64,000 nucleotides of DNA from an uncultured Microbacterium sp. (lineage in GTDB: Bacteria; Actinomycetota; Actinomycetes; Actinomycetales; Microbacteriaceae). Under the pieces are notes generated by a model, which was not told where the DNA came from, made no database searches, and was given only the letters and a program-made list of their open reading frames with translations. Position 1 is the stretch's first letter. The number at the start of each line of letters is the position of its first letter. The stretch lies in assembly GCA_913774665.1 (NCBI GenBank), contig CAJYHN010000012.1, positions 1-64,000 of the forward strand, in the 5' to 3' direction. The translations under genes and the position numbers were made by a program. Of this stretch, positions 1,642 to 58,836 are shown piece after piece.

Positions 1642-2691
1642 TCAGCCCCGTCCCGGAGGACGGGAGAAGCGCTGCTGCAGGAGCACCGCGACCACGATGA
1701 TGACACCTTTCGCCACCGCCTGTACGGAAGACGAGAGATTGTTCTGGATGAATACGTTCGACAACGTCGCGAAGATGAGGACGCCGAACACCGTACCGGT
1801 GATCGTGCCCCGGCCGCCGACGAGGAGCGTGCCGCCGACCACGACCGCGGCGATGGCATCCAACTCGTACAGCTGACCGTGGGTCGAGGTGCCCGCCGTC
1901 GTGCGGCCGAGGATCATGACGGCCGCGATGCCGGCGCACAGCCCCGTGATCGCGTACAGCCACATCGTGTGCCGGCGCACGTCGATGCCCGCCAGACGCG
2001 CGGCTTCGCGGTTGCCGCCGACGGCAACGGTGCGACGACCGAAGGTGGTGCGGTTCAACAGCACCCAGCCGAGGGCCGCCACGATGGCGAAGATCCAGAT
2101 GAGGATGTCCACGCCGAGGATGTCGGCGTTCATGAAGGTGATGAAGCCGCGGTCCTGCACCACGAGCGTGCGACGCTCGGCCAGGATCTCGGCGAGGCCG
2201 CGCGCGCCCACGAGCATGGCGAGGGTCGCCATGAAGGCCACGACGTTGCCGTAGGCGATGACGATGCCGTTGATGAGGCCGGCGCCCACGCCCACCGCGA
2301 GGGCGATGACGACCATGACGCTCCAGTGCAGGTTGTCGGCGAGATCCTGCACGGCGGCGAGGGTCGCGACCACGGAAGCGAGGCCCATCACCGAGCCGAC
2401 CGACAGGTCGATGCCGCCCGCGATGATCACGAGGGTCATGCCGATGCTGATGACGCCGATGATCGAGGCCTGGCGGAGGATGACGAGCAGGTTGTCGACG
2501 CTCGTGAACGACCCGGGCGCGGTGACGGCGCCGACGATGACGATGACCAGCAGCGCGACGACGAGGCCGATGTTGCGGCCGGCCGATCCGGAGAGGAAGC
2601 GGCGCCAGGCGGGCTCGGGAGCGGGAGCCGCGACGGCCCCGGTCTCGGTGGGGACCGTGCGTGCACGGGTCGGGGTGGTCGGCTCGCTCAC
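1642..2691 (-). CDS. Sugar ABC transporter permease (CUT2, RbsC-like)
   Basis: Integral membrane permease of a CUT2 monosaccharide importer, 349 residues with about ten hydrophobic helices after a Thr/Pro/Ala-rich cytoplasmic N-terminus of about 35 residues. The family signature is visible as GMTLVIIAGGIDLSVGSVMGL and, later, GRTTAGTSTHGQLYELDAIAAVV, both typical of RbsC/XylH-type permeases. The GTG start overlaps the stop of the ATPase gene by 4 bp (GTGA), showing translational coupling. It works with the ATPase at 2688-4208 and presumably the lipoprotein at 4464. Substrate unknown; ribose, xylose or a cyclitol are all compatible. Confidence 0.93.
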   Translation of the reverse strand: MSEPTTPTRARTVPTETGAVAAPAPEPAWRRFLSGSAGRNIGLVVALLVIVIVGAVTAPGSFTSVDNLLVILRQASIIGVISIGMTLVIIAGGIDLSVGSVMGLASVVATLAAVQDLADNLHWSVMVVIALAVGVGAGLINGIVIAYGNVVAFMATLAMLVGARGLAEILAERRTLVVQDRGFITFMNADILGVDILIWIFAIVAALGWVLLNRTTFGRRTVAVGGNREAARLAGIDVRRHTMWLYAITGLCAGIAAVMILGRTTAGTSTHGQLYELDAIAAVVVGGTLLVGGRGTITGTVFGVLIFATLSNVFIQNNLSSSVQAVAKGVIIVVAVLLQQRFSRPPGRG

Positions 2692-4208
2692 GCGGCGGAT
2701 CCTTTCATGACGAGATCGAGCACGCCGTGCTCGTCGATCTGGTGGGAGGGGAGGGTGCTCAGGATGCGACCGTCGGCGACGACGAGGACGACATCGGCGA
2801 GGCCGAGGACTTCTTCGATCTCGCTCGAGACGACGACGACCGCGTTGCCTGCGGCGGCGAGATCGCGGATGAGGGTGTAGATCTCGGCGCGAGCGCCGAC
2901 GTCGACGCCGCGGGTGGGTTCGTCGAGCAGCAGCACCTCGGTGCCGTGCACGAGCCAGCGGGCGAGCAGGATCTTCTGCTGATTGCCGCCGGACAGGGTG
3001 CGGGCGGGGCGATCGGGGTCGGCCGGGCGCAGCTCGAAGGCGTCGATCTGTTCGCGGGCGACCTTGCGGGCGGCGCGGTCGTCGATGAAACCGCCCGTGG
3101 CGAAGCGCTTCATCGAGGCCAGCGCGATGTTCACGAAGATCGGCTCGTCGAGCACGAGCCCCTGACTCTTGCGTTCCTCGGGTGACAGACCGATGCCCGC
3201 TCCGACAGCGGCGCGGACCGACCCGCGGGGCAGGACCTTGTCGCGCACGCGCACAGAGCCGGCGCTCGATCGTCGTGCACCGTAGACCGTCTCGAGGATC
3301 TCGGACCGACCCGAGCCGACGAGTCCCGCGAGCCCCACCACCTCACCGGCGCGCACCGAGAACGACACATCGGAGAAGACCCCGTCGAGCCCGAGTCCCT
3401 GCACGTCGAGGACGACGGGGGCATCGGATGCCACGGGCGCACGCTCGGGGAAGACATTGGCCACCTCGCGCCCGGTCATGAGCCGGATGAGTTCGGCCTT
3501 CGGGGTGTCGGCGGCGGAGAGACCGACCGCGGTGGTCCGCCCGTCCTTCAGGACGGTGATGCGGTCGCCGATCTCGCGGATCTCTTCGAGGCGGTGCGTG
3601 ATGTAGACGACGGCGATGCCCGCGGCGGTGAGCTCGCGCACGACGGCGAAGAGGTTCTTGACCTCTTCGGTGTCGAGGACGGCCGAGGGCTCGTCCATGA
3701 TGATCAGCTTGATGTCGTGCGACAGCGCGCGCGCCATGCTGACGATCTGCTTGTTGGCGGCGCTGAGCGAGCCGACCTCGGCGTTCGGAGAGAGGTTGGC
3801 GTGTCCGAGACGGCGCAGCAGCTCGCGAGTCTGTCGGGCGGCTTCGGCGCGCTGCGTGAACCCACCGCGCGCGAGCTCGTGCCCGAGGAAGATGTTCTCG
3901 GCGATCGAGAGACCGTCGACGACGTCGAGCTCCTGGTACATCGTCGCGATGCCGAGTTCGATGGCCGCGTCCGGGTCGGCGATCTCGACGTTCTCGCCGA
4001 GCCACACGATCTCTCCCTCGTCGGGGCGGTGCACTCCGGCGAGGGTCTTGATGAGAGTCGACTTGCCCGCGCCGTTCTGGCCCAGCACGCAGTGCACCTC
4101 GCCGGCGACGATATCGAGATCGACACCGCGGAGAGCGCGGACGCCGGCGAAGGACTTGGTCACGCCTCGGACGGTGAGTAATGACGACTGATGGTCAACT
4201 TTGATCAC
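2688..4208 (-). CDS. Sugar ABC transporter ATP-binding protein (CUT2, RbsA-like)
   Basis: Cytoplasmic double-ABC ATPase, 506 residues from a GTG start (codons VIKVDH). An open frame continues 51 codons upstream but is Arg/Ala-rich and unlike the family, so I reject it. Domain 1 has Walker A GQNGAGKST at 43-51, an LSAANKQ signature and Walker B IIMDEPS. Domain 2 has the degenerate second P-loop usual in RbsA (GLVGSGRSE), the signature LSGGNQQK and Walker B LLLDEPT. The gene leads a two-gene operon with the permease and is transcribed away from the binding-protein gene. Length and architecture are standard for CUT2 importers. Confidence 0.93.
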   Translation of the reverse strand: MIKVDHQSSLLTVRGVTKSFAGVRALRGVDLDIVAGEVHCVLGQNGAGKSTLIKTLAGVHRPDEGEIVWLGENVEIADPDAAIELGIATMYQELDVVDGLSIAENIFLGHELARGGFTQRAEAARQTRELLRRLGHANLSPNAEVGSLSAANKQIVSMARALSHDIKLIIMDEPSAVLDTEEVKNLFAVVRELTAAGIAVVYITHRLEEIREIGDRITVLKDGRTTAVGLSAADTPKAELIRLMTGREVANVFPERAPVASDAPVVLDVQGLGLDGVFSDVSFSVRAGEVVGLAGLVGSGRSEILETVYGARRSSAGSVRVRDKVLPRGSVRAAVGAGIGLSPEERKSQGLVLDEPIFVNIALASMKRFATGGFIDDRAARKVAREQIDAFELRPADPDRPARTLSGGNQQKILLARWLVHGTEVLLLDEPTRGVDVGARAEIYTLIRDLAAAGNAVVVVSSEIEEVLGLADVVLVVADGRILSTLPSHQIDEHGVLDLVMKGSAA

Positions 4209-4463
4209 GCGGCGAACATAACACGCCGCCTCGCCGCCGCGCGACCCGCATTCGGCGCTGCGCACGCGAGCCGCCCCCCCGCACGCGCGCGAGCGCTCCC
4301 GTGTCGGAATCGGCAATGCGCCCGACTTATGCGGGATAGAAAACAAAAGATGCTCAATCAATCGACACTTCTGCTAGCGTGAGCCACGTCAGAGTGGACC
4401 CTTCCTTCCGGAATGACCCGGGGCCGCGATGACCCCAGCTGCATCACATTTCAAGGAGGAAAC
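4209..4463. promoter_or_regulatory. Divergent control region between ABC ATPase and binding-protein genes
   Basis: 255 bp without a gene, separating two divergent sugar-transport transcripts. An A/T-rich island at about 4330-4380 stands out from the G+C-rich flanks and should hold both promoters. On the minus strand TTGATT followed after 17 bp by TATCCC is a possible promoter for the ATPase gene. A strong ribosome site AAGGAGG lies just before the ATG at 4464. I could not pick out a clear ROK operator palindrome. Confidence 0.5.
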
Positions 4464-5513
4464 ATGCGCTCACAGTTGAAGTCGCGTTCGCGACTCGTCC
4501 TGACCGGTATCGCCGTCGTCGCCTCGGTCGGCCTTCTCGCCGGCTGCACCGGCTCGGGCGGCGACAGCCAGAACGTCGTCGACCAGGGCACCACGACCGA
4601 GGAGAACGCCGCCGCCGGTGACACCGTCACCATCGGGTTCTCCGGCCCCGCCGCCGACCACGGGTGGCTCGGCGCCATCAACTCCGGTGCGCTCGCCGCC
4701 GCCGAGAGCTTCCCCGACGTCGACCTCAAGGTCGCCGAGGGCACGAACGACGTCAACGCGCAGATCGCGGCCGTCGAGACCTTCATCAACGACGGCGTCG
4801 ACGCCATCGTGCTCCTCCCGAGCGACGGCGCCGCTCTCACCGAGGTCGCGATCAAGGCGATGAACGCGGGTATCCCCGTGATCAACGTCGACCGCGAGTT
4901 CTCGAGCCCGTTCGCCGCCCGCTCGACCATCCTGGGCGACAACTACGGCATGGGCGTCAGCGCCGGCACCTACATCTGCGGCCAGCTCGAGGGCAACAGC
5001 AATGCCGTCGTCGGCGAGATCGCGGGCATCGACTCCCTCCCGCTCACGCAGGACCGCTCGGCGGGCTTCGCCGACGCCCTGTCGGACTGCGGCCTGAAGG
5101 TCGGACCCCGCGTCGCCGCGGACTTCACCGTCCAGGGCGGCGAGGCCTCGACCTCGCAGCTGCTGTCGGCGAACCCGAAGATCGACGCCATCTGGAACCA
5201 CGACGACGACCAGGGCATCGGCGTGCTCGCGGCCATCACGGCAGCCGGTCGCGACGAGTTCATCATGGTCGGCGGCGCGGGCAGCCGGAACGCGATGGAG
5301 TCCATCCAGGCCGACGACAGCGTTCTGAAGGCCACGGTCATCTACCCGTCGACGCAGGCCGCCGACGGCATCGCCCTGGCGCGCCTGATCGCGCAGGGCA
5401 AGACCGCCGGTGACCTCATCACGCCCAGCGTCCCCAACCGCATCGTGTTGGACGCCCCCGTGGTGACGAAGGACAACGTCGCGTCCTACATCGACCTCTC
5501 GTTCCAGTCCTGA
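4464..5513 (+). CDS. Sugar ABC transporter substrate-binding lipoprotein
   Basis: Extracytoplasmic sugar-binding lipoprotein of the RbsB-like Peripla_BP_4 type, 349 residues. The start is fixed by AAGGAGG six bases before the ATG. Signal peptide residues 1-30 end in the lipobox LLAGC, with Cys as the lipidated residue, followed by a Gly/Ser/Thr-rich linker. The two-lobed domain begins near residue 52 ([17 protein letters not shown]); [13 protein letters not shown] and [12 protein letters not shown] match ligand-pocket segments of the family. It is the first gene of a plus-strand unit with the dehydrogenase and isomerase that follow. A hairpin 9 bp after the stop may raise its level relative to the downstream genes, a usual arrangement for binding proteins. 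Confidence 0.93.
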
Positions 5514-5581: not shown

Positions 5582-6796
5582 GTGACCCAGCCCCTTCGCA
5601 TCGCCATGATCGGTGCGGGATTCATGGGCGCCGCGCATTCCCAGGGATGGCGCGTCGCCCCTCGTTTCTTCGACCTCCCCCTCGCCCCCGAGATGAGCGT
5701 GCTCGTCGGGCGCGACGCGGCCCGCACGCAGGCAGCCGCCGAGACCTGGGGCTGGCAGAAGAGCGCGACGGACTGGCGCGAGGTCATCCACCGCTCCGAC
5801 ATCGACGTCGTCGACATTGTGACCCCCGGCGACTCGCACGCCGAGATCGCGATCGCCGCCCTCGCCGCCGGGAAGCACGTCCTGTGCGAGAAGCCACTCG
5901 CCAACACCGTCGACGAAGCTCGGCGCATGGCCGAGGCCGCCGCGTCCGCCGCGGACAACGGCATCCGATCGATGGTCGGCTTCACGTACCGGCGTCTTCC
6001 CGCTACGACTTTCGCCCGCGACCTCGTCGCCGCGGGGCGCCTCGGCGACATCCGCCAGGTGCGCGCCGAATACCTCCAGGACTGGCTCAGCGACGCCGAG
6101 GCCCCGCTCACGTGGCGCCTGCAGAAGGACCGCGCCGGATCCGGCGCCCTCGGCGACATCGGCGCCCACGCCGTCGACCTCACCGAGTTCATCACCGGGC
6201 AGCGCGTGAGTCGGGTCGCCGGCATCCTCGAGACGATCGTCGAGGAGCGCCCCGTCCTCGCATCCTCCTCCGGGCTCTCCGGTTCCGCCGGCACCGGACG
6301 AGGGGCCGTCACCGTCGACGACCTCGCCCTCTTCACCGGTCGCCTCGACAGCGGCGCGCTCGCGTCGTTCGAGGCCTCGCGCTTCCGCCTCGGCCGCAAG
6401 AACGCCCTGCGCATCGAGATCGCCGGATCCCTCGGCTCGCTGTCGTTCGATCTCGAGAGCCCGAACGAACTCCAGTTCTACGACGCCACGCTCCCCGCCG
6501 CCGAGCAGGGCTTCCGCCGGATACTCGTCACCGAACCCGAGCACCCCTACGTCGCTGCGTGGTGGCCCACCGGTCACATGCTCGGCTACGAGCACGGCTT
6601 CTCGCACCAGGCGAAGGACTTCGTCGAGTCCGTCGCCGCCGGAACCGCCCCGACACCCTCGTTCGCCGACGGCCTGCACGTGCAGGAGGTGCTCGACGCC
6701 GTCGCGCGCAGCTCCGAGGCCGACGGCGTCTGGACAGGCGTCGAGGCCGACCTGGCCACCGCTTCTTCCGGGGGCCGTGCGTTCGCGGCATCCTGA
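5582..6796 (+). CDS. Gfo/Idh/MocA family sugar/cyclitol dehydrogenase
   Basis: NAD(P)-dependent oxidoreductase of the Gfo/Idh/MocA family, 404 residues, GTG start. Residues 5-125 form the Rossmann domain with [14 protein letters not shown] and the family motif CEKPLA containing the conserved Lys. The C-terminal alpha/beta domain has [10 protein letters not shown], whose Asp and His are the usual catalytic residues. It lies between a sugar-binding lipoprotein and a sugar-phosphate-isomerase-like TIM barrel, so oxidation of the imported sugar or cyclitol at a ring hydroxyl, followed by isomerization, is a reasonable inference. Related enzymes include inositol dehydrogenases and 3-keto-sugar-forming enzymes; the exact substrate is not visible. 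Confidence 0.88.
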
Positions 6797-6834
6797 TCCC
6801 GATCCCGGAACCGCACCGACGAAAGGACGCCGCG

Positions 6835-7839
6835 ATGGCGCGACCGATCACTCTCTTCACCGGCCAGTGGGCCGACCTCCCCTTCGAGGAGGTGGCCCGT
6901 CTCGCCGGCGAGTGGGGCTACGACGGCCTCGAGATCGCCTGCTGGGGAGACCACCTCGATCCCTGGCGCTGGGACGACGAGGCCTACGTGCAGGGCAAGC
7001 TCGATGTGCTCGAGCGCAACGGCCTGAAGGTCTGGACCATCTCGAACCACCTGAAAGGCCAGGTCGTCTGCGACGATCCCATCGACCAGCGTCACCGCGA
7101 CATCGTGTCGGACCGGGTGTGGGGCGACGGCGACCCCGAGGGCGTGCGTCAGCGCGCCGCCGAGGAGCTGAAGAACACCGCGCGCCTCGCCGCGAAGCTG
7201 GGCGTGAAGACGGTCACGGGCTTCACCGGCTCGAGCATCTGGAAGTACGTCGCGATGTTCCCGCCCGCGACCGAGCAGATGGTGGATGCCGGATACCAGG
7301 ACTTCGCCGACCGCTGGAACCCGATCCTCGACGTGTTCGACGAGGTCGGGGTGCGCTTCGCGCACGAGGTGCACCCCTCGGAGATCGCCTACGACTACTG
7401 GACGACGAAGCGCGCGCTCGAGGCCATCGGTCACCGCGAGGCGTTCGGGCTGAATTGGGATCCCTCGCACATGGTGTGGCAGGACATCGATCCGGTCGCG
7501 TTCCTGTGGGACTTCCAGGACAAGATCTTCCACGTCCACTGCAAGGACACGAAGAAGCGTCTCGGCAACGGCCGCAACGGACGCCTGTCGTCGCACCTGC
7601 CGTGGGCCGATCCGCGACGCGGCTGGGACTTCATCTCGACCGGCCACGGCGACGTGCCGTGGGAGGACGCGTTCCGCATGCTGAACGCGATCGGCTACGA
7701 CGGGCCGCTGTCGGTCGAGTGGGAGGACGCGGGCATGGACCGCCTGATCGGAGCGCCCGAGGCGCTCGGATTCGTGCGGAAGCTGTCGTCGTACGAGCCC
7801 TCCGGGGCGGCGTTCGACGCGGCGTTCAGCCGGCGCTGA
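6835..7839 (+). CDS. Sugar phosphate isomerase/epimerase (xylose-isomerase-like TIM barrel)
   Basis: 334-residue AP endonuclease 2/xylose-isomerase-like TIM barrel with a ribosome site GAAAGGA before the ATG. The metal-site pattern is present: ARFEVHP-like segment seen as [12 protein letters not shown] (Glu), NWDPSHMVW (Asp and His), FHVHCKD (His), and LSVEWEDAG (Glu). It follows the dehydrogenase by 38 bp in the same transcript. Proteins of this type, often paired with Gfo/Idh/MocA enzymes and CUT2 importers, isomerize or epimerize keto-sugars or inosose-like intermediates. The function is general; I cannot name the substrate. Confidence 0.87.
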
Positions 7840-7865
7840 TCCGGGGGGATCGGTCGGGAGCGAGA

Positions 7866-7899
7866 AGAAGGGCCGGATGCCGAGGCATCCGGCCCTTCT
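7866..7899. terminator. Bidirectional terminator hairpin
   Basis: AGAAGGGCCGGATGCC (7866-7881), GA, GGCATCCGGCCCTTCT (7884-7899): perfect 16-base arms separating convergent genes ending at 7839 and 7983. Long G+C-rich stem ending in CTTCT on one strand and the mirror on the other, as expected for a two-way terminator. Confidence 0.8.
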
Positions 7900-7982
7900 C
7901 GTGCGCCCGGCCCCGTCACGAGAACAGGAGGCGCAGCGCCCCGCGCCGGGCGCAGCGCCCGCGAACGACGTCGCGCCCCGCG

Positions 7983-9365
7983 TCAGACGCCCAGGCCGCG
8001 CAGCACCAGGTCGCGGACGCCCGCGGCCGGCAGCGACTCGGCGTCGGGCAGCAGACCGGCGTCGCTCGTGAGGAGCATCGGTCCGTCACGCCGCGACGAC
8101 GACAGGCGGCCGTGCGTCCCGCGGACGCACGAGGGGTCGAGGGGCACCGTGCTCATCGCGTAACGCAGGCCGAGCTTCTTCTTCGCGAGGTTCACGCCGG
8201 CCTTGGCCTTGGCGAGACGGTCGGCGGGGTCGAAGAACAGCTCGGCGGGGTCGTATCCGGGCTTGCGGTGGATGTCGACGCCCCGGGCGTACTCCGGGGC
8301 CCGCTCGTCGTCGAGCCAGAAGTAATAGGTGAACCAGGCGCCCGGCTCGGCTACCACCACCAGTTCTCCGGAGCGCTCGTGATCCAGGCCGTACCGCGCC
8401 TGCGCGTCGCGATCGAGAACCTCGTCGACACCCTCGAGCCCGCGCAGCAGCGCCGTCACGCGGGGGAGGTCGGCGGCATCCGGAACGTACACGTGAGCGA
8501 CCTGATGGTCGGCCACGGCGAACGCGCGCGAGGTCCACGGGTCGAGCTGTTCACGGCCGTCCTGCACGTACACCTCGAGCAGCCCCGCGCGGCGCAGGGC
8601 GCGGTTGACGTCGACGGGGCGCGACGCCTCTTCGATGCCGTACTCCGACACGGCGACGATGCGATACCCGCGGTCGAGCGCGTCGGCCAGCAGGGGCGCG
8701 ATCGCGTCGTCGAGCTCGCGCGCCGCGTGCGCGGCCTCGGGACCGTTCGGCCCGAATCGTTGGAGGTCGTAGTCGAGGTGCGGCAGGTACGCCATCGCCA
8801 GGTCGGGCGCCGGCCCCCACCGCTCGGTGATGACACCGCGCGTGGCCTCGGCGAGCCACGCGGTGCTGTGGATCGTCGCGGTCGGGCCCCAGTACTGGAA
8901 CAGCGGGAAGTCGCCGAGCGCCCCCACGAGCTGGTCATGCAGAGCCGCGGGGCGGACGTACGCGTCGGGGCTCTTGCGCCCGTCGGCGTGATAGATCGGG
9001 CGCGGGGTCACGGTGATGTCGGTGGACGCCCCCATCGCGAACCACCAGCCGAGGTTGGCGGTGGTCAACTCGGGGCGCGATCGCCGCGCGGTCTCCCACA
9101 CCTTCTCGCCGGCGACGAGCTTGTTGTGCTGGCGCCACAGGAGAGGGTCGCCGAGGCCGCGGAAGTGCCAGCCGTTGCCGACGATCCCGTGCTCGCGCGG
9201 CATCGTGCCGGTGAGTATGGTCGACTGCACGCTGCAGGTGACGGCCGGGAGGATCGTGTCGAGGCCCAAGTGGCCGCCGTCGCGGCCGAGCGCGGTGAGT
9301 CGGGGCATCGCGGCGAGCGCGCGCGGGGTGAGCCCCACGATGTCCAGCAGCAGGACCTTGCTCAT
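7983..9365 (-). CDS. eboF: EboF-like nucleotide pyrophosphatase / alkaline phosphatase superfamily protein
   Basis: 460-residue predicted metal-dependent phosphodiesterase/phosphatase of the alkaline phosphatase superfamily, last gene of the ebo-type operon; its ATG overlaps the upstream stop by 4 bp. Visible core: D8 in LLLDIVG, nucleophile candidate T43 in LPAVTCSVQST, the TGTMPREHGIVGNGWHF segment, LPHLDYD (H196, D198/D200) and H287/H291 near DHQVAHVYV. The usual second metal motif SDHG(M/W) is replaced by SEYGI (240-244), so a standard two-zinc site is not certain. No signal peptide is seen, which places it in the cytoplasm. In described ebo clusters EboF is the member of this superfamily; substrate is unknown. 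Confidence 0.8.
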   Translation of the reverse strand: MSKVLLLDIVGLTPRALAAMPRLTALGRDGGHLGLDTILPAVTCSVQSTILTGTMPREHGIVGNGWHFRGLGDPLLWRQHNKLVAGEKVWETARRSRPELTTANLGWWFAMGASTDITVTPRPIYHADGRKSPDAYVRPAALHDQLVGALGDFPLFQYWGPTATIHSTAWLAEATRGVITERWGPAPDLAMAYLPHLDYDLQRFGPNGPEAAHAARELDDAIAPLLADALDRGYRIVAVSEYGIEEASRPVDVNRALRRAGLLEVYVQDGREQLDPWTSRAFAVADHQVAHVYVPDAADLPRVTALLRGLEGVDEVLDRDAQARYGLDHERSGELVVVAEPGAWFTYYFWLDDERAPEYARGVDIHRKPGYDPAELFFDPADRLAKAKAGVNLAKKKLGLRYAMSTVPLDPSCVRGTHGRLSSSRRDGPMLLTSDAGLLPDAESLPAAGVRDLVLRGLGV

Positions 9366-10531
9366 GCCAGGCTCCTTTCGTCGATTCCGGATGCCGGGAC
9401 CCCGGCGAGGGCGCGCGGCAGGTGCGTGTGCGCCCAGCGCAGTTCGGCCGCGATCCCGCTGACGAGCGTTTCGGGCTGCAGGTCTTCGGGCAGCACCGAC
9501 CAGGTGTAGGTCTCGATGTCGAGGTGGGCGTCACCGCCGCCGGGGGTCTCGAGGACCGCGGCGATCGCGTCGAGCAGCACCTCGGTGGTGGCGCGGAGGG
9601 GCGCTGCGGGACGCGCGTGCAGGGGGATGTGGACGTGCACGCGCCAGGCGCGGTCGGTCGGCCACGGCGCGGCGGCGTCGAGCACCTCGGGCAGGTCGTC
9701 GGCGGAGCGTCGACCGCCGGCCTCGCGCACCTGGTGGACGTAGCGTTCCTCGGCGAAGGGGCGGAGCGCGTCCGCCGTGCGGGGGTCGGCGGGGTCGGGC
9801 ACCTCGAGGGCGACCGAGGCCTGCACCTTCACGATGCGGATGCCGGCGGCGGTGGCCGCCGCGACCGCGCCGGCGGGGTCGGCGAACGACACCGCGAGGT
9901 GGCAGGTGTCCAGGCACAGCCCGAGGCGGCCCTCGGCGGTCAGGTGCGGGCGGGCGCCGAGCCAGGCCACCACGTCGGCGACGTCGTCGAGGATGCAGCC
10001 GGGCTCGGGTTCGATCGCCACGCGGACGAGGCGTCCCGTCTCGCGCTCCAGCGCCGCGAGGCCCTCGACGAGTCCGGCGAGGTGCTCCTCCGCGGCGCGG
10101 TCGGCCGCGGCATCCCACCCCTCCCTCCATCCGAGCGGGAGCGTCGAGATACTGCCCTCGGCCCCGGCGGGAAGCAGCGCCGCGAGGGCGCGCGCGCAGT
10201 CGAGCGTGTACGCCAGACGCTCGCGCGTGGTCCAGTCGGGGCGGTACACCGCGAGCTTGACGACGTCGTCGTGGAAACCGCGGTAAGGGAACGCGTTGAC
10301 GGTGCGCAGCTCCAGGCCGTTGCGCTCGAGGGCCTCGGCGAGGACCGCCCGCGCCCGCGGGTCGTCGGCGAGGGTGGATGCCACGCCCACCGGCATCCAC
10401 AGTCCGACGCCGAGACGCTCCAGGTTCGCCGCGCGTCGCACGGGGCCGGCGTGCTCGTCGAGCTGGCGGACGATGCCGGGGAGGTCTTCGGCGGGGTGGA
10501 CGTTGGTGCAGTAGGACAGCTCCACCCTCAC
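9362..10531 (-). CDS. eboE: EboE-like metabolite traffic protein (xylose-isomerase-like TIM barrel)
   Basis: 389-residue protein starting with a GTG that overlaps the eboB stop (GTGA). The N-terminal motif LSYCTNVHPAEDL is, as I recall it, characteristic of EboE. Further TIM-barrel metal-site segments are AIEPEPGCIL (Glu) and LGLCLDTCHLAV (Asp and His), and a late DIETYTW (Glu). It is named a metabolite traffic protein because the cluster was linked to export of the scytonemin monomer in cyanobacteria; chemically it looks like a sugar-phosphate isomerase/epimerase. Co-translation with eboB and eboF supports one pathway. Exact reaction unknown. Confidence 0.82.
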   Translation of the reverse strand: MRVELSYCTNVHPAEDLPGIVRQLDEHAGPVRRAANLERLGVGLWMPVGVASTLADDPRARAVLAEALERNGLELRTVNAFPYRGFHDDVVKLAVYRPDWTTRERLAYTLDCARALAALLPAGAEGSISTLPLGWREGWDAAADRAAEEHLAGLVEGLAALERETGRLVRVAIEPEPGCILDDVADVVAWLGARPHLTAEGRLGLCLDTCHLAVSFADPAGAVAAATAAGIRIVKVQASVALEVPDPADPRTADALRPFAEERYVHQVREAGGRRSADDLPEVLDAAAPWPTDRAWRVHVHIPLHARPAAPLRATTEVLLDAIAAVLETPGGGDAHLDIETYTWSVLPEDLQPETLVSGIAAELRWAHTHLPRALAGVPASGIDERSLA

Positions 10532-11412
10532 GCCCCCTGGCGCGACGCCGTACCGCGCAGCACGGAGTTGCCGGCGAACAGTTCGGGTCCCTGGCTCGCG
10601 GGCGCGAAGCCGTCGATCGGGTCGGTGTTCACGCGCCCGCTCTGCGCGTAGAAGTCGCGCGGGTTGCGCCAGAGGATACGGTCGACGTCGTCGTCGCTGA
10701 AGCCCGCGTCGAGCATGGCCAGACCCGTCTTCGCCGTCTTGAGCGGGTCGGAGCGCCCCCAGTCGGCCGCGGAGTTCACGATGACGCGGTCGAGCCCGAT
10801 GCGCTGCATGATGGCGACGACGCGCTGCTCGTCCATCTTGGTGTCGGGGTAGATCGAGAACCCCATCCAGGCGCCGCTGTCGGCGACCGCGTCGACGCAG
10901 GTCTCGTTGAGGTGGTCGACGAGCACGCGCTCCATCGGGATGCCGGACTCGGCCACCACGTCGAGCGTGCGCCGGGTGCCCACGGTCTTGTCGCGATGCG
11001 GGGTGTGGACGAGCACGGGGAGGTCGAACTCGATGCCGAGCGCGAGGTGTTGACGCAGGATCTCGTCTTCTTCGGGGGTCATCGAGTCATAGCCGGTCTC
11101 GCCGACGGCGACGACGCCGTCCTTGGCGAGATAGGTCGGCAGCTCGGCCATGACCTCGCGGCAGCGCGCGTCGTTGGCCTCTTTCGGGTTGAGCGCGATC
11201 GTGCAGTGGTGGCGGATGCCGAACTGCGCCGCGCGGAAGCGCTCCCACCCGATCAGCGCATCGAAGTAGTCGAGGAACGACCCGACGCTCGTGCGCGGCT
11301 GACCGAGCCAGAACGCCGGCTCCACCAGGGCGCGCACGCCCGCGTCGTACATCGCCTCGTAGTCGTCGGTGGTGCGGGCGGACATGTGGATATGGGGGTC
11401 GAAGATGCGCAT
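10528..11412 (-). CDS. eboB: EboB-like TatD family metal-dependent hydrolase
   Basis: 294-residue TatD-type amidohydrolase. I start it at the ATG one base after the preceding stop (TGA-C-ATG), which has GAAAGGG in front; an in-frame TTG/ATG seven codons earlier has no support. Metal ligands are visible: H7 and H9 in FDPHIHM, Glu in VGETGYDSM, His in LVHTPHR and VDHLNE, and a late Asp in VNSAADWGRSD. TatD proteins are usually nucleases or deacylases, but in ebo clusters the activity is not established. It is sandwiched between the TIM-EboA fusion and EboE genes with 1-bp and 4-bp junctions. Confidence 0.83.
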   Translation of the reverse strand: MRIFDPHIHMSARTTDDYEAMYDAGVRALVEPAFWLGQPRTSVGSFLDYFDALIGWERFRAAQFGIRHHCTIALNPKEANDARCREVMAELPTYLAKDGVVAVGETGYDSMTPEEDEILRQHLALGIEFDLPVLVHTPHRDKTVGTRRTLDVVAESGIPMERVLVDHLNETCVDAVADSGAWMGFSIYPDTKMDEQRVVAIMQRIGLDRVIVNSAADWGRSDPLKTAKTGLAMLDAGFSDDDVDRILWRNPRDFYAQSGRVNTDPIDGFAPASQGPELFAGNSVLRGTASRQGA

Positions 11413-11413
11413 G

Positions 11414-12880
11414 TCAGGCCCTTTCGCGAGCACGGAGGAAGGTGAGGTCGTCGGGCACGGAACGGCCCGCAGCGCGCCGCTCGACGGCGAACCGCTCCGC
11501 CATCGCGGCCAGTTCGTCGTCGGCGCGGGCGTCGAGGGCGACGACGACCGAGAGGGGGATGCCGAGGAACACGCACTTCAGGACGCCGTGACGCCACGCG
11601 TGATCGTCGAGGTGATCCGCGGCGAAGCGTCCGAGCGCGGCGACGACCAGCCGCGTGTCGTTGGCGCGGAGGGCGTCCGCGACGAGCTCCAGACCGGCCT
11701 CGCGCCAGGCGGCCGAGGGCGCCGTGATCGCGTCGAGACCACGCAGTACTCCCCGACGCTCGGCGTCGTCGCCGCGGCGGTACAGCGCGACCCCCACGGC
11801 GGGGTCGGCGCGACTGTCGGCCAGGGCCGCGATGATCTCGGCGCGCGCGGCGTCGTCGGCGGTCATCGCGAAAGGCTCCGCCGAGAGGGGCTCCCGCCCC
11901 ACCTCGCGACCCGCCGCGGCGAACAGGCGCGCGGCGCGGGCGGCATCCGCGCGCACCTGCTCCACGGCGCGGGTGGTCCAGGGATGCCGTGCCGAATCGG
12001 CCGGGCGCGGGCCGACGGGAACGCGTCCTCCCGCGGTCGCCGTCGCCGAGCGTTCCGCCGCCCCGACCAGCGCGGCCATGCTGGCGCCCGCCAGCTCGGG
12101 GGCCGCGTGCGCGTGCCGCGGCAACTCCACCGCGATCACGCCGCGGTAGTCGATCTCGCGCAGCGTCGAGAGGGCGGCATCCAGGTCGAGCTCGCCCTCA
12201 CCGAAGGGAAGGTGCTCGTGCGCGGTGGGGAGCATGTCGTCGGCCTGCACGTTGCGCAGCAGGGGGCCCGCCGCCCGCAGCGCACCCACCACCCCGTCGG
12301 GCTCGACCACCACGCAGTGGCCGAGGTCGACGGTGATGCCCAGGTTCGCCGGATGGCCGAGACGGGCGCGGAGTGCGAGGGCGTCGGCCACGGTCTCGAT
12401 CAGCATGCCGGGTTCGGGTTCGATCGAGAGCGTGACGCCGGCGTCGGCGGCGACCGCGACGATCTCGAGCAGACGCTCCTCGAGCAGCACCCGGGCCTGG
12501 TCGGTCGAGACGTCGTCGGGCACGACCCCGCTCCACAGCGACACGCACTCGGCATCGAGGATCGCGGCGATCTCGACGGCCCGCCTCAGGAACGCCGTGC
12601 GCGGCGCAGCCTCCCGATCGACGAGGGTCGGACGGTGCTTGCGCAGGGGGTCGAGCAGGTAGCGGGCGCCCGTCTCGACGACCACCCGCAGTCCCCGGCG
12701 GCGGATCTCCGCGGCGAGCGCCTCGCTCTGTTCGCGCCAGTCGACGGCGAAGGGATCGAGGTGCGGGTGACCGAGCGTGAGGGCCACCGCGCCGTAGCCG
12801 TGATGCTGCAGCACGTCGAGGGCGGAGGGCAGCGGATGATCGGTAAAGCCATTGGTGCCGTAACCCCAGGTCCAGCTCAT
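11414..12880 (-). CDS. eboA: Fusion of TIM-barrel isomerase and EboA domain
   Basis: 488 residues. Residues 1-280 are a xylose-isomerase-like TIM barrel with metal residues in IEPEPG (E154), VDLGH (D185, H188), VQADD (Q212) and VELPRH (E252). Residues ~305-488 are an all-helical domain whose HAWRHGVLKCVFLGIPL segment (427-443) is what I recognise as EboA. A linker rich in Ala, Arg and Pro (~278-305) joins them. The ATG overlaps the eboC stop by 4 bp. EboA is normally a separate protein of about 200 residues, so the fusion links the EboA function directly to a sugar-isomerase step. The barrel is distinct from the EboE barrel in the same operon. No signal peptide or membrane segment. Confidence 0.8.
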   Translation of the reverse strand: MSWTWGYGTNGFTDHPLPSALDVLQHHGYGAVALTLGHPHLDPFAVDWREQSEALAAEIRRRGLRVVVETGARYLLDPLRKHRPTLVDREAAPRTAFLRRAVEIAAILDAECVSLWSGVVPDDVSTDQARVLLEERLLEIVAVAADAGVTLSIEPEPGMLIETVADALALRARLGHPANLGITVDLGHCVVVEPDGVVGALRAAGPLLRNVQADDMLPTAHEHLPFGEGELDLDAALSTLREIDYRGVIAVELPRHAHAAPELAGASMAALVGAAERSATATAGGRVPVGPRPADSARHPWTTRAVEQVRADAARAARLFAAAGREVGREPLSAEPFAMTADDAARAEIIAALADSRADPAVGVALYRRGDDAERRGVLRGLDAITAPSAAWREAGLELVADALRANDTRLVVAALGRFAADHLDDHAWRHGVLKCVFLGIPLSVVVALDARADDELAAMAERFAVERRAAGRSVPDDLTFLRARERA

Positions 12881-13740
12881 GTGATGTCTCCCGTCGAACG
12901 GCGGCGGCCGAGCACGCGGCCGAGGGTCTCGATGCCCACGAGGGTCGCGGTCGCCAGCGGTGAGCCCGCCCGTGCGGCGAGGGCGGACTGCAGGGGGACG
13001 ACGGCACGGATGCCCGCGCGGGTGGCGTCGCGCGCCTGAGCCGCCCCGGGGTGACGCGCGACCGCCAGCTGCCCGGGCAGGACCGCGGCGAGGTAGCGCG
13101 CTCCCCCGAGCACGGCGGCGGAGCGGTTTGAGCGTCCGAGCAGACCGGATGCCGCCACGGCGACGCTCGTGGCCACGGCGACGCGACCGGTGGGCACTGT
13201 CGACCCGTCGACCTCGCCCCGCGAGATCGCGGTGACGGCGACCGTGTGGGCGGCGACCGCCCCCGCGGGGACCAGGGCCGAGCGCCAACCCGGCCCGGCG
13301 GCGCCCATCATGACGTCGAGTCCGCGGCAGACGGCCATGACGATCGGACCGGCCGCCGTCGGCTTGAACACGGTGTCGTAGGCCCACAACGCTCCGGCGA
13401 GCGCGACCGACACCAGACCCGAGCGACGACCGGCGGCGAACGCCGCGCCCACCCCGAGGGCGGTCAGACCGACGCCCACCGCGAGCGCGCGGTCACGGCT
13501 GATCCGCCCCGAGGGGATGGGCCGCTCGGGGCGCTCCCGCGCGTCGAGATCGGCATCCGCCCAATCGTTCAGCGCCATCCCGGCGCTGTACAGGCAGACC
13601 GACGCGGCCGCGAGCGCGCCCACGCGCAGGCGATCGTCGCCCGCCCCGCGCGCGCTCAGCGCCCCGACGAGAGCGTCGCCGAGGACGGTGAGCGAGGCGG
13701 GGGCGCGGACGAGGTCGAGGTAGTCCGCGACCCGCGTCAC
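12877..13740 (-). CDS. eboC: EboC-like UbiA family prenyltransferase
   Basis: 287-residue integral membrane protein of the UbiA superfamily with about eight hydrophobic segments. The GTG start overlaps the previous stop (GTGA). The first Asp-rich motif NDWADADLD gives N58, D59, D62 and D66, the pattern that binds the prenyl diphosphate through Mg2+. The second conserved loop is DTVFKPT followed by CRGLDVMMGAAG; it lacks a classical DxxxD but resembles other EboC-like proteins as I recall them. UbiA enzymes join a polyprenyl chain to an acceptor at the membrane; here the acceptor could be a product of the inositol-phosphate synthase encoded just upstream. That link is inference. Confidence 0.85.
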   Translation of the reverse strand: MTRVADYLDLVRAPASLTVLGDALVGALSARGAGDDRLRVGALAAASVCLYSAGMALNDWADADLDARERPERPIPSGRISRDRALAVGVGLTALGVGAAFAAGRRSGLVSVALAGALWAYDTVFKPTAAGPIVMAVCRGLDVMMGAAGPGWRSALVPAGAVAAHTVAVTAISRGEVDGSTVPTGRVAVATSVAVAASGLLGRSNRSAAVLGGARYLAAVLPGQLAVARHPGAAQARDATRAGIRAVVPLQSALAARAGSPLATATLVGIETLGRVLGRRRSTGDIT

Positions 13741-14954
13741 GGTGCGGCGACCCGGGCTGCCGCGACGGCGGCTGCGGTCTCGTGCACCCACGAGACGAAC
13801 TGAGCGGTCTGCGCGCCGAAGCCGTGGACGTCGCTCCCCCACGGATCCTTGAAGAAGCAGCCGAGGGCGGTGACGACCCCCGCGTGGCCCGCACGCGTGG
13901 CGAGCGACAGCGCTCGGACGAGGTCGATGACCAGGGGCGCGGCAAGGGCGGAGTCGTAGGCGCTCCACGTGGTCTGCAGCGTCACGCGGCTGCCGAGGAA
14001 GCCTGTCGCGCTGACGTGATCCCATGCCGTCTTGACGTCGCCGAGGTCGGGCACGTTGTCGATGTGCAGCGGGGCGACGACGTCGTTTCCGACGAGAGCG
14101 TGCAGACCGCGGTTCTTCGACACCAGCTTGGAGCGGACGGCCTCGGGATCGGCCAGGGTCGCACCGTCGCCGCCGCCGAGGAGGTTGGTGCCGGCCCAGG
14201 ACCGCACACGGAACCCGCGGGCGGTGAACATCGGCGCCAGCACCGTCCGCAGCAGCGTCTCGCCGGTCTTCCCGTCCTGCCCCGCGTACGCGATGCCCGC
14301 GCGTTCGGCGCGCTCGCGCAGGACGGGGAGGTTGAGGGATGCCGAGGGGGTGAAGGCCGCGTAGGCGGCTCCGGCCGCGATGGCGGCGAGGGCGGCGCGC
14401 GAGCTGGGCGGCAGGACCCGCACACCCGGGGTCGTGAGGGCCGCCTGCAGGAGGGCGTCGTCTTCGAAGCCCGGGTGGTACGGCGGAAGGGGCTCGGTGG
14501 ACGAGACGTCGATGACGACGACCTCGCGCAGGTCGTGACGGTCGCGGAAGTCGGCGATGTCGGCCGCGAGCAGGTCGATCTCGTCCTGCTGGGTGGCCGT
14601 CATCGTGGGGACGGCGCGGAGGTTCTGCTCGGTCTCGCGCAGGCGCTCGGCCACCGCGTCGACGAGGGCGGCGGGGAACATCCCCCCGGCGGCGAGCTGG
14701 CGCGCACGTTCTTCCAGCGGGGTGGTCGAGATGTCGTGACCGCCGACGACGATGTCAGCGATCGCGGGGAACTCGTCGACGCGCACCGCGTCGGTCTCGG
14801 TCGTGAGGCCGACGGGCGTCGCGGCGCCCAGGGCGAGGGCATGGATGCCGAGGGTCGCGGTCGTGGCGAGCGAGCCTCGCGCGCCGATGAACCAGGCGCC
14901 GACGTCGGCGATGCGGCGGGTGTCCGAAGTGTTCACGTGGGGTCCGTTCTTCAT
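13737..14954 (-). CDS. Inositol-3-phosphate synthase (first gene of ebo-type operon)
   Basis: 405 residues from the ATG; a GTG six codons later (14936) is an alternative. Cyclizes D-glucose 6-phosphate to 1D-myo-inositol 3-phosphate using enzyme-bound NAD+. Seen: Rossmann segment WFIGARGSLATTATLG, DVSSTEPLPPYHP, AAFTPSASLNLPVLRERAE, GQDGKTGETLLRTVLAPMF with a conserved active-site Lys, WAGTNLLGGGDGATLADPE and SKNRGL. These are standard MIPS landmarks, and nothing looks missing. It differs from the shorter housekeeping Ino1 of actinobacteria. It overlaps eboC by 4 bp. In other ebo clusters a DHQ-synthase-like EboD supplies a carbocycle; no EboD is present here, so this enzyme may take that place. 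Confidence 0.86.
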   Translation of the reverse strand: MKNGPHVNTSDTRRIADVGAWFIGARGSLATTATLGIHALALGAATPVGLTTETDAVRVDEFPAIADIVVGGHDISTTPLEERARQLAAGGMFPAALVDAVAERLRETEQNLRAVPTMTATQQDEIDLLAADIADFRDRHDLREVVVIDVSSTEPLPPYHPGFEDDALLQAALTTPGVRVLPPSSRAALAAIAAGAAYAAFTPSASLNLPVLRERAERAGIAYAGQDGKTGETLLRTVLAPMFTARGFRVRSWAGTNLLGGGDGATLADPEAVRSKLVSKNRGLHALVGNDVVAPLHIDNVPDLGDVKTAWDHVSATGFLGSRVTLQTTWSAYDSALAAPLVIDLVRALSLATRAGHAGVVTALGCFFKDPWGSDVHGFGAQTAQFVSWVHETAAAVAAARVAAP

Positions 14955-56976: not shown

Positions 56977-58836
56977 TCAGCGCTGCTTGACCTCGCCGAA
57001 GAGCCGCGCGATCGGCATGAGGACCGCCGGCCGCGCCGCCACCCAGGCCGCGGCCATCACCACGAGGGAGGCAGCGAAGATCAGCAGACCGGTCGGGTCG
57101 CTCGTGTACGCGGCGGGGTCTTCCGAGCCGCGCGCGGCGTACATGTGATTGAGGTTGCGCAGGGCTCCGGTCGCCAGCACGAGGGCGACGTGTACGACGA
57201 TGAACGCGACGAAGAACAGCATTGTGGGGAAGTGCACCTTGCGCGCCCACTCGATCGGGTAGAGCTTGTTGAGCTTCTCGGCGTCCTTGGGCCACACCCC
57301 CGACAGGCGCACGCCGCTGATGATCGCGAGGGGCGCGGCGACGAAGGTGATCGCGAAGTACGACAGTTGTTGCAGGCTGTTGTAGTTCACCCAGCCGTTC
57401 TCGGTCGGCCAGTCGAGCGAGGCGTACTGCAGGGCGGCAGACAGCGCGTTGGGGAAGACCTCCCACGAGGTCGGGACGATACGCATCCACTGCCCCGTCA
57501 CGAACAGCAGCACGACGAAGACGACGCCGTTGGCGATCCACAGGATGTCGAGCGCTTGGTGGAACCACAGCCCCAGGCTGATCCGCCGCTTCTTGTTGTT
57601 CCGCGGCGACCAGAACGCGGCCGGGCGCTTCTCTCGCCGCACCTGCCAGCCGGTGCGGATGATCAGCAGCAGGAAGAGGCTGTTGAGGAAGTGCGACCAG
57701 TTCAGCCAGACCGGGAGCCCCACGGGCGCCGACTCGGGCAGGTGGTACTCGCCGGGGAACGCCGCGAGGAACTCCCGCCCGGGCCCGATCGCGAGCACGA
57801 ACCGCGCGATCAGCACGGCGATGCCGACCAGAGCCAGCGCGAAGACACCGAGCACCGCGGTCGAGCCGAGCAGCTGCACGGGTGAGAAGTCCGCGAGGCG
57901 CGGCTGCACCCCGGCGACCGACCGCTTCTGCTCGGAGAGCGCCGTCGTCGCCCGGTTTCGGGCCGCCGCCCCCGGCCAGACCGTGCGCGGCACGGTGAGC
58001 GGCGGGCGCGGGGATGCCGTTACGGCCGCGCCAGTTCCGGGCGGAGCGGGGTTCGCGGTGTCGACCTCGGCCGAAGCCGCGGGCGCCGTCGCGCGGGCGG
58101 TCGCCGCGGACCTCGCCGCCGTCTCGGCATCCGCACCGGCATCGGCCCCGGTCGCCGCAGAGGGCGTCGCGCTCCCGACATTCACCCCAGGCTCGGTTGC
58201 CCTCACGCCGGCGCGCGCCGTCCCGGCATCCGCACCGACATCGGCCCCACGCGCCGCCGCAGGCGCCGCACTCCCGGCATTCACCCCAGGCTCGGTTGCC
58301 CTCACGCCGGCGCGCGCCGTCTCGGCGTCCGCACCGGTTTCGGATCCACTCACCGGAATCGGACGCGAGATGCCCGCTGATCCGATTCCGTTGCGATTCT
58401 CCGACGTCGCTGCGGAGCCACCACCCGCGACAGAGGGAGGGACAGCGGATGCCGGCGGCCAGGGCTCCCCGCCCGGCACACGCGGCAGACCTCGGCGGAC
58501 GCCGACGGTCGGGGCTTCCCCCGCGGGCGCCCCGGGAACGGGTGCCCCCGGAGCGGGTGCCCCCGGAGTGGGCACCCCCGGAATGGGCACCTTGGGAGGA
58601 AGCGCCCCGGGAGCGGGCGCAACAGAGACAGACGGATTCCCCGGATGCGGATCAGACGGCGCCTGCGATCCGACCCCGTCGCGCGGAGCCGAATCCGTTG
58701 CCGCCGCGACCACATCCGCGCCCTCGAACGAGACGACGTCGGCGTCGCCGGGCGCGCCCGGTGCCGCGGGCGGCCAGGGCTCCCCGCCGGGGGTGCGCGG
58801 CAGCCCGCGTCGCGGGGTGCGGGGTGTGGACGCCAT
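56977..58836 (-). CDS. Cytochrome b/b6-type membrane protein with long Pro/Ala-rich N-terminus
   Basis: 619 residues; the ATG directly follows the etfA stop (TAGATG). Residues 1-324 are low-complexity Pro/Ala/Gly with a duplicated RRGLPR(T/V)PGGEPWPP motif and ~33-residue repeats. Residues 325-619 are a four- to five-helix domain resembling formate-dehydrogenase/hydrogenase cytochrome b: WLNWSHFLNSLFLLLIIRTG (H382), LWFHQALDILW (H426), RKVHFPTMLFF (H535) and VVHVALVL (H549) could ligate two haems. Encoded with etfB and etfA, it may pass electrons from the flavoprotein to quinone. That role is inference; no ETF:quinone oxidoreductase gene is seen here. Confidence 0.78.
   Translation of the reverse strand: MASTPRTPRRGLPRTPGGEPWPPAAPGAPGDADVVSFEGADVVAAATDSAPRDGVGSQAPSDPHPGNPSVSVAPAPGALPPKVPIPGVPTPGAPAPGAPVPGAPAGEAPTVGVRRGLPRVPGGEPWPPASAVPPSVAGGGSAATSENRNGIGSAGISRPIPVSGSETGADAETARAGVRATEPGVNAGSAAPAAARGADVGADAGTARAGVRATEPGVNVGSATPSAATGADAGADAETAARSAATARATAPAASAEVDTANPAPPGTGAAVTASPRPPLTVPRTVWPGAAARNRATTALSEQKRSVAGVQPRLADFSPVQLLGSTAVLGVFALALVGIAVLIARFVLAIGPGREFLAAFPGEYHLPESAPVGLPVWLNWSHFLNSLFLLLIIRTGWQVRREKRPAAFWSPRNNKKRRISLGLWFHQALDILWIANGVVFVVLLFVTGQWMRIVPTSWEVFPNALSAALQYASLDWPTENGWVNYNSLQQLSYFAITFVAAPLAIISGVRLSGVWPKDAEKLNKLYPIEWARKVHFPTMLFFVAFIVVHVALVLATGALRNLNHMYAARGSEDPAAYTSDPTGLLIFAASLVVMAAAWVAARPAVLMPIARLFGEVKQR
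58119..58350 (-). repeat. 99-bp in-frame repeats inside the cytochrome b N-terminus
   Basis: A 41-bp block is identical at 58181-58221 and 58280-58320, giving a period of 99 bp (33 residues, core ARAGVRATEPGVN), and a shorter related segment begins near 58119. Repeat-number change by slippage is likely. Confidence 0.8.

Follow-up and report, generated by a model that had tools for sequence, protein, structure and literature searches.

The ebo operon (eboA to eboF) has been described in cyanobacteria, Bacteroidota, Proteobacteria, and the plastids of eustigmatophytes. Actinobacterial relatives are also on record: hybrids of a triosephosphate isomerase (TIM) barrel with EboA were described by Yurchenko et al. 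in 2016 (PMC5133447), and ebo clusters in Saccharomonospora have been published (PMC9235831). Here, an operon of this kind was analyzed in a 64,000-nucleotide stretch of contig CAJYHN010000012.1 from an uncultured Microbacterium sp. (the window). Six genes on the minus strand, running from position 14954 to 7983, encode a myo-inositol-3-phosphate synthase (MIPS), an EboC-like prenyltransferase, a TIM-EboA fusion, EboB, EboE, and EboF (Table 1). The operon shares with classical eboA-F the linked EboA, EboB, EboC-like, EboE, and EboF components but differs in having MIPS for EboD, a further TIM barrel that forms one protein with EboA, and an EboC of the SCO3242 family. As read from the sequence, its junctions are, in gene order, GTGA and ATGA overlaps, a 1-bp gap between TIM-EboA and EboB, and again GTGA and ATGA overlaps. 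An initial annotation, made from the sequence alone, had given the same six genes, coordinates, 4-bp overlaps, and 1-bp gap, all of which were borne out; NCBIfam matches and the likeness to annotated ebo operons also upheld its assignment of the genes to ebo. It had also called the operon complete; because EboD is absent from the operon, and no match at the level of a true EboD was detected elsewhere in the genome, the operon is instead a variant, the MIPS-type actinobacterial form of ebo. The presence of MIPS in the place of EboD, on which the initial annotation did not remark, is the main new point.

The distribution of the two cyclases was scored in 123 ebo loci, made up of a first set of 24 (including the window), 80 named loci, and 19 plasmid loci. 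The named set represents the best 80 of at least 587 EboB relatives obtained by scanning named genomes with an EboB alignment, and all are from Actinomycetota, judged from their record titles. Profiles for the individual parts were built on the first-set loci and the EboD profile on eight annotated plasmid genes. MIPS alone was found in 98 loci and EboD alone in nine; none had both and 16 had neither, with seven of the latter starting at or near contig ends (L066, L076, L094, L101, L102, L105, and L114). The TIM gene was present in 96/98 MIPS loci and in 0/9 EboD loci. Genuine EboD genes score 542 to 654 bits on the EboD profile (eight of the nine were used to build it; the ninth scored 542). 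In the window's genome, no EboD was found at the operon, and the best match genome-wide was 153 bits. A displaced EboD elsewhere in the 23 ebo genomes was also considered and rejected, the best match being 141 to 194 bits in 22 genomes and absent from one.

The history of this alternation was followed on trees of EboB, EboF, and EboE (41, 40, and 35 author-chosen rows, respectively, the EboE tree without haloarchaea), with rows lacking both cyclases left uncounted for state changes. The EboB and the EboF tree each imply a minimum of two changes of state. In the EboB tree, the MIPS-type Gemmatirosa locus pairs with the EboD-type Deinococcus locus (support 100/99) and a single clade of EboD-type rows was rejected (approximately unbiased test, p-AU 7e-28); in the EboF tree, Gemmatirosa falls within the EboD-type group (94/99). 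The second change is not firm in the EboE tree, where Gemmatirosa lies inside the EboD-type group on a fork with support under 80. In the EboC tree, Gemmatirosa groups with actinobacteria (97/92), the EboD types do not firmly form one group, and one Aureibacter row is very long. Outside actinobacteria, MIPS-type loci occur in haloarchaea (L141, L145, and L146) and Gemmatirosa (L147), and Planctomycetes without eboD are described in PMC5133447. A 56-bit EboA match in Gemmatirosa overlaps the TIM gene and was not counted as EboA.

The window MIPS contains both Pfam domains of the family (PF07994, 136.6 bits; PF01658, 102.7 bits), and its closest solved relative is archaeal, the Archaeoglobus MIPS 1u1i (E 7e-52). 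Equivalents of N255, K274, K278, K306, and K367 (Archaeoglobus numbering), which, with the other positions given below, we take to be catalytic, are all present in the window protein. Among the ebo MIPS, the equivalents of N255, D261, K274, K278, K306, and K367 are kept in 97/98 (with one gap) and that of D332 in 98/98. The solved-structure alignments to MIPS include mutant chains that carry Ala at K278 and K367. Collectively, the mutual exclusion of MIPS and EboD, the presence of TIM with MIPS, at least two changes of state, and the retention of catalytic positions indicate that MIPS and TIM most likely replace EboD. No report linking MIPS to ebo was recognized in searches of an open-access library, which leaves out most subscription papers and all preprints.

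The mycothiol INO1 model TIGR03450 gave the window MIPS 38.9 bits, compared with a cut-off of 638. Scans of the window's genome with PF07994 and TIGR03450 returned the same single gene (far below cut-off with the latter), so no inositol phosphate synthase other than the ebo MIPS was detected there. Among 199 sampled genomes from the window's family, PF07994 was above cut-off in six, each time in the ebo MIPS, and two further genomes had weak matches below cut-off. Other kinds of MIPS are common in a wider sample of 396 Actinomycetota genomes, 83 of which exceed the PF07994 cut-off, so the restriction of MIPS to ebo holds for the family alone. A mycothiol-type synthase is also encoded in two ebo genomes (G128 and G150) and nearly reaches the cut-off in two others (G455 and G279). 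In a 52-row MIPS tree (36 ebo, 13 non-ebo, and 3 mycothiol), the 13 non-ebo sequences form one group (100/100) separate from the ebo rows; the branch leading to the mycothiol rows is very long, and these rows do not root the tree.

The initial annotation had described the gene order as rearranged, but MIPS-EboC-TIM-EboA-EboB-EboE-EboF is the usual actinobacterial order, found in 66/80 named loci, and the recurrence of one order of seven parts at this frequency is far beyond chance. Among the other 14 named loci are the seven already listed at contig ends; five that are uncut and have no MIPS (L092, L095, L108, L129, and L131); L121, with no TIM match and cut within EboF; and L119, without full matches to EboC, TIM, and EboF. 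All seven parts were found in 21/24 first-set loci, the exceptions being L027, L037, and L051. TIM and EboA share one reading frame in 32/80 named loci, so the fusion is common. An apparent order with EboA before TIM in seven loci was rejected as an artefact of where the profile match starts. The EboA domain was found in 18/396 genomes of the wider sample and 7/199 of the family sample. Two first-set loci have an unusual composition. L051 (genome G584) is a reduced EboC-EboA-EboB-EboF locus without MIPS, EboE, or a clear TIM (51 bits), and beside it lie genes for a sugar ATP-binding cassette (ABC) transporter, for a glucose/sorbosone dehydrogenase (GSDH)-type protein that probably contains a PKD domain, and for a TIM barrel that is probably secreted. 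L037 (G279) retains EboA, EboB, and EboF, with a weak EboC and split EboE matches, and may be decaying.

The remaining proteins were compared with family models and solved structures. The window EboC passed the "SCO3242 family" model NF045897 (292.6 bits; cut-off 260) but not the EboC equivalog model NF035940 (150.5 bits; cut-off 250). A DxxDxxxD motif can be read in its sequence, and its nearest solved relative by sequence is the DGGGP synthase 6m31, a weak match (E 1.2e-5). The TIM-EboA protein contains a PF01261 barrel (124 bits) and an EboA domain (NF035938, 133.6 bits; cut-off 50) and scores 52.1 bits on the full-length EboA model NF035937, against a cut-off of 320. Its AlphaFold2 model (mean predicted local distance difference test score, pLDDT, of 94.4) places the barrel up to approximately residue 283 and a helical domain from residue 300. 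Ketose 3-epimerases and IolI have folds similar to that of the barrel, a likeness too broad for naming the reaction. The usual metal-ligand His of this fold seems to be Gln in most members, 98/105 of which contain a VQ.[DE] motif somewhere in the TIM frame. The EboA model (pLDDT 96.1) gave no significant match to solved structures (best E 0.19) and so pointed to no function. EboB matched PF01026 and no EboB-specific model. It is 50 to 58% identical to the EboB proteins encoded beside EboD in Azospirillum, Mycetohabitans, Gloeothece, Aureibacter, Salipiger, Roseivivax, and Ketogulonicigenium, and 37% identical to that of the EboD-type Deinococcus locus. Identity to the EboB of Microbacterium testaceum StLB037 (L055) reaches 99%, so the window comes from a Microbacterium close to that species. 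EboE passed the TIM_EboE model NF035939 (417.4 bits; cut-off 250) and had no match among solved structures up to E 0.1. EboF matched PF01663 with 198 bits, and the actinobacterial EboF profile gave 566 to 660 bits in 8/9 EboD-type loci, with no match in L137.

From the gene content and order, the alternation of the cyclases, and the retained catalytic residues, we infer the activities of a pathway, the order of its steps, its product, and its use. MIPS would cyclize glucose 6-phosphate to inositol 3-phosphate and, together with the extra TIM barrel, would do the job of EboD, a sugar phosphate cyclase, in supplying a cyclitol. With EboD most likely replaced by MIPS and TIM, EboC, a membrane UbiA prenyltransferase, would attach a prenyl chain to an inositol-type cyclitol or to a product made from it. 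The ring may be modified by EboE and EboB and phosphate removed or split by EboF, with EboA, a small helical protein, probably acting as a scaffold that holds a complex together. The product would most likely be a prenylated cyclitol serving a process outside the membrane. That MIPS and TIM supply the cyclitol as EboD does elsewhere, and that a prenylated cyclitol results, is in our judgment moderately probable. Two unrelated ring-forming enzymes alternating in one operon would identify the step as cyclitol formation, and the ring could derive from glucose 6-phosphate via inositol phosphate, narrowing the likely product of the pathway. The interpretation in the initial annotation survives in part: ebo kinship holds, and the reading best supported is of a product that is prenylated and comes from a cyclitol, but the operon is not complete, its gene order is normal for actinobacteria, and the EboC model was not passed.

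Several observations weigh against the prenylated cyclitol. Nine uncut loci have neither cyclase (L027, L037, L051, L092, L095, L108, L129, L131, and L148), and the MIPS loci L119 and L121 have no TIM. In the seventh ebo genome of the family sample, G584, neither PF07994 nor TIGR03450 detected a MIPS. The locus counts are biased, the named set having been selected for closeness to actinobacterial EboB; the part profiles are of actinobacterial origin; the EboD-type loci number only nine; and the sample is nonrandom, with some loci closely related to each other. In published work, the Maribacter EboC (Ubi-297) farnesylated quinolines in vitro, suggesting an aromatic acceptor (PMC9235831), and sedoheptulose 7-phosphate, rather than glucose 6-phosphate, was proposed for EboD from its tree position by Yurchenko et al. 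(PMC5133447). Nostoc ebo mutants lose the export of the scytonemin monomer (PMC6282210), a phenotype that a prenylated cyclitol explains only indirectly.

Features beyond the operon were also examined (Table 1). The promoter claimed in the initial annotation was not recovered: a consensus scan for sigma-70 type promoters found 0 (0.2 expected), with a consensus that does not cover all actinobacterial promoter types. No Rfam family reached its gathering score in the window. ARAGORN's call of a tRNA at 57781-57871, with the type undetermined and an anticodon of four bases (cgcg), is probably false.

Table 1. Genes and other features of the ebo operon and its surroundings in the window
Feature	Position	Strand	Basis
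MIPS-type inositol-3-phosphate synthase, 405 aa, in the place of EboD	13737..14954	-	PF07994, PF01658, 1u1i
EboC-like UbiA prenyltransferase, "SCO3242 family", 287 aa	12877..13740	-	NF045897
TIM barrel-EboA domain fusion, 488 aa	11414..12880	-	PF01261, NF035938, AlphaFold2 model
EboB, TatD-like metallo-hydrolase, 294 aa	10528..11412	-	PF01026, identity to known EboB
EboE, xylose isomerase-like TIM barrel, 389 aa	9362..10531	-	NF035939
EboF, phosphodiesterase/nucleotide pyrophosphatase family, 460 aa	7983..9365	-	PF01663, EboF profile
Terminator-like hairpin between convergent genes	7863..7900	-	By eye; absent from the list of the consensus scan
TIM barrel (sugar isomerase/epimerase), convergent neighbor	6802..7839	+	PF01261; relatives in flanks of 36/80 named loci
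Gfo/Idh/MocA oxidoreductase, levoglucosan-dehydrogenase-like	5582..6796	+	NF052479; relatives in flanks of 26/80
Probable sugar ABC transporter substrate-binding protein	4413..5513	+	Named by sequence reading; relatives in flanks of 24/80
Probable sugar ABC transporter ATP-binding protein	2688..4361	-	Named by sequence reading; relatives in flanks of 25/80

Genes for sugar metabolism recur beside the operon. Flanks were searched with eight sugar-related queries drawn from the ebo loci themselves; GSDH was found at 34 of the 80 named loci, ThuA at 25, and 3-keto-disaccharide hydrolase at 11, and 24 loci matched none of the eight. In 13/23 ebo genomes, GSDH lies within 10 kb of ebo, compared with 0.49 expected (95 GSDH places used; P = 4e-17 with kinship ignored), and these 13 genomes are spread over 5/8 family groups. 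The window flanks hold the transporter, Gfo/Idh (355.6 bits on NF052479, below the cut-off of 650), and TIM genes without GSDH, the genome's only GSDH match being on another contig. Neither GSDH nor ThuA was found by these queries in the flanks of eight EboD-type plasmid loci; L139 and L140, both EboD-type, have a nearby dehydrogenase annotated as pyrroloquinoline quinone-dependent or simply as "dehydrogenase". In some Streptomyces, ScyD/ScyE-family genes occur just upstream of MIPS (L118:5140-6348, L143:2596-3798, L152:6880-8079, and L153:7079-8278), with a multicopper oxidase also near the operon in the last three. The recurrent genes for secreted sugar oxidation offer a second, independent lead to ebo function. 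A bold extension, which we consider improbable, is that the ebo product is a prenylated, possibly quinone-like, cyclitol-derived cofactor or carrier for secreted beta-propeller oxidoreductases, ScyE in cyanobacteria and GSDH-type proteins in actinobacteria. If it were true, the scytonemin defect would be a single instance of a more general part played by ebo in oxidation beyond the membrane. A literature search for secreted sugar neighbors together with the prenyltransferase found nothing relevant.

The strongest alternative is that the ebo operon functions mainly in transport, exporting a finished metabolite with the prenylated cyclitol as a reused lipid carrier. The scytonemin monomer remains cytoplasmic in each Nostoc ebo mutant (PMC6282210), as such a role would predict, and the ScyD/ScyE-family genes beside four Streptomyces operons, three of them with a multicopper oxidase, are consistent with it. 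However, family scans recognized no transporter or flippase gene in the operon, and just 1/80 named loci had a flanking gene of the ScyD/ScyE family. Transport as the main function is, in our judgment, less likely than not.

An aromatic acceptor for EboC appears unlikely. Here the cyclitol would first lose water to become an aromatic ring, and the prenylated compound would be quinone-like. Inosose dehydratases are found among PF01261 barrels, which suits such a step. The farnesylation of quinolines by Ubi-297 points the same way (PMC9235831), as does the discussion of BE-40644, a farnesylated, cyclitol-derived compound, in PMC5133447. Yet no oxidase was recognized in the operon by family scans, and Ubi-297 did not accept phenols or catechols (PMC9235831). 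Finally, that MIPS is a bulk supplier of inositol for neighboring sugar or inositol metabolism, with an accidental linkage to ebo, is suggested by the ABC transporter, Gfo/Idh, and TIM neighbors but is highly improbable, since MIPS overlaps EboC by 4 bp, holds the same place in 66/80 named loci from many families, and accompanies ebo genes again in haloarchaea and in Gemmatirosa.

Two other gene groups resemble the operon of the window. Plasmids of Halobaculum, Halocatena, and Natronococcus carry clusters that, like the window, encode MIPS, EboB, EboC-like, and EboF homologues and no EboD. Unlike the window, they have a different gene order and two TIM barrels, neither a clear EboE, and EboA was not found in them. 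Four haloarchaeal plasmid loci (L141, L145, L146, and L148) read EboB, TIM, UbiA, TIM, and EboF; three of the four have MIPS, and EboA was found in none. The second group is SCO3242-SCO3243 of Streptomyces coelicolor, listed within the calcium-dependent antibiotic (CDA) cluster as a putative transferase and a myo-inositol phosphate synthase, respectively (PMC3610822). The pair is not termed ebo where that paper lists it, and the likeness is known here from these names and from the match of the window EboC to the SCO3242 family model in NCBIfam; on this basis, some ebo genes of an operon probably lie within the interval of the well-studied CDA cluster. Actinobacterial ebo genes were already known, and the exchange of EboD for MIPS is the new point.

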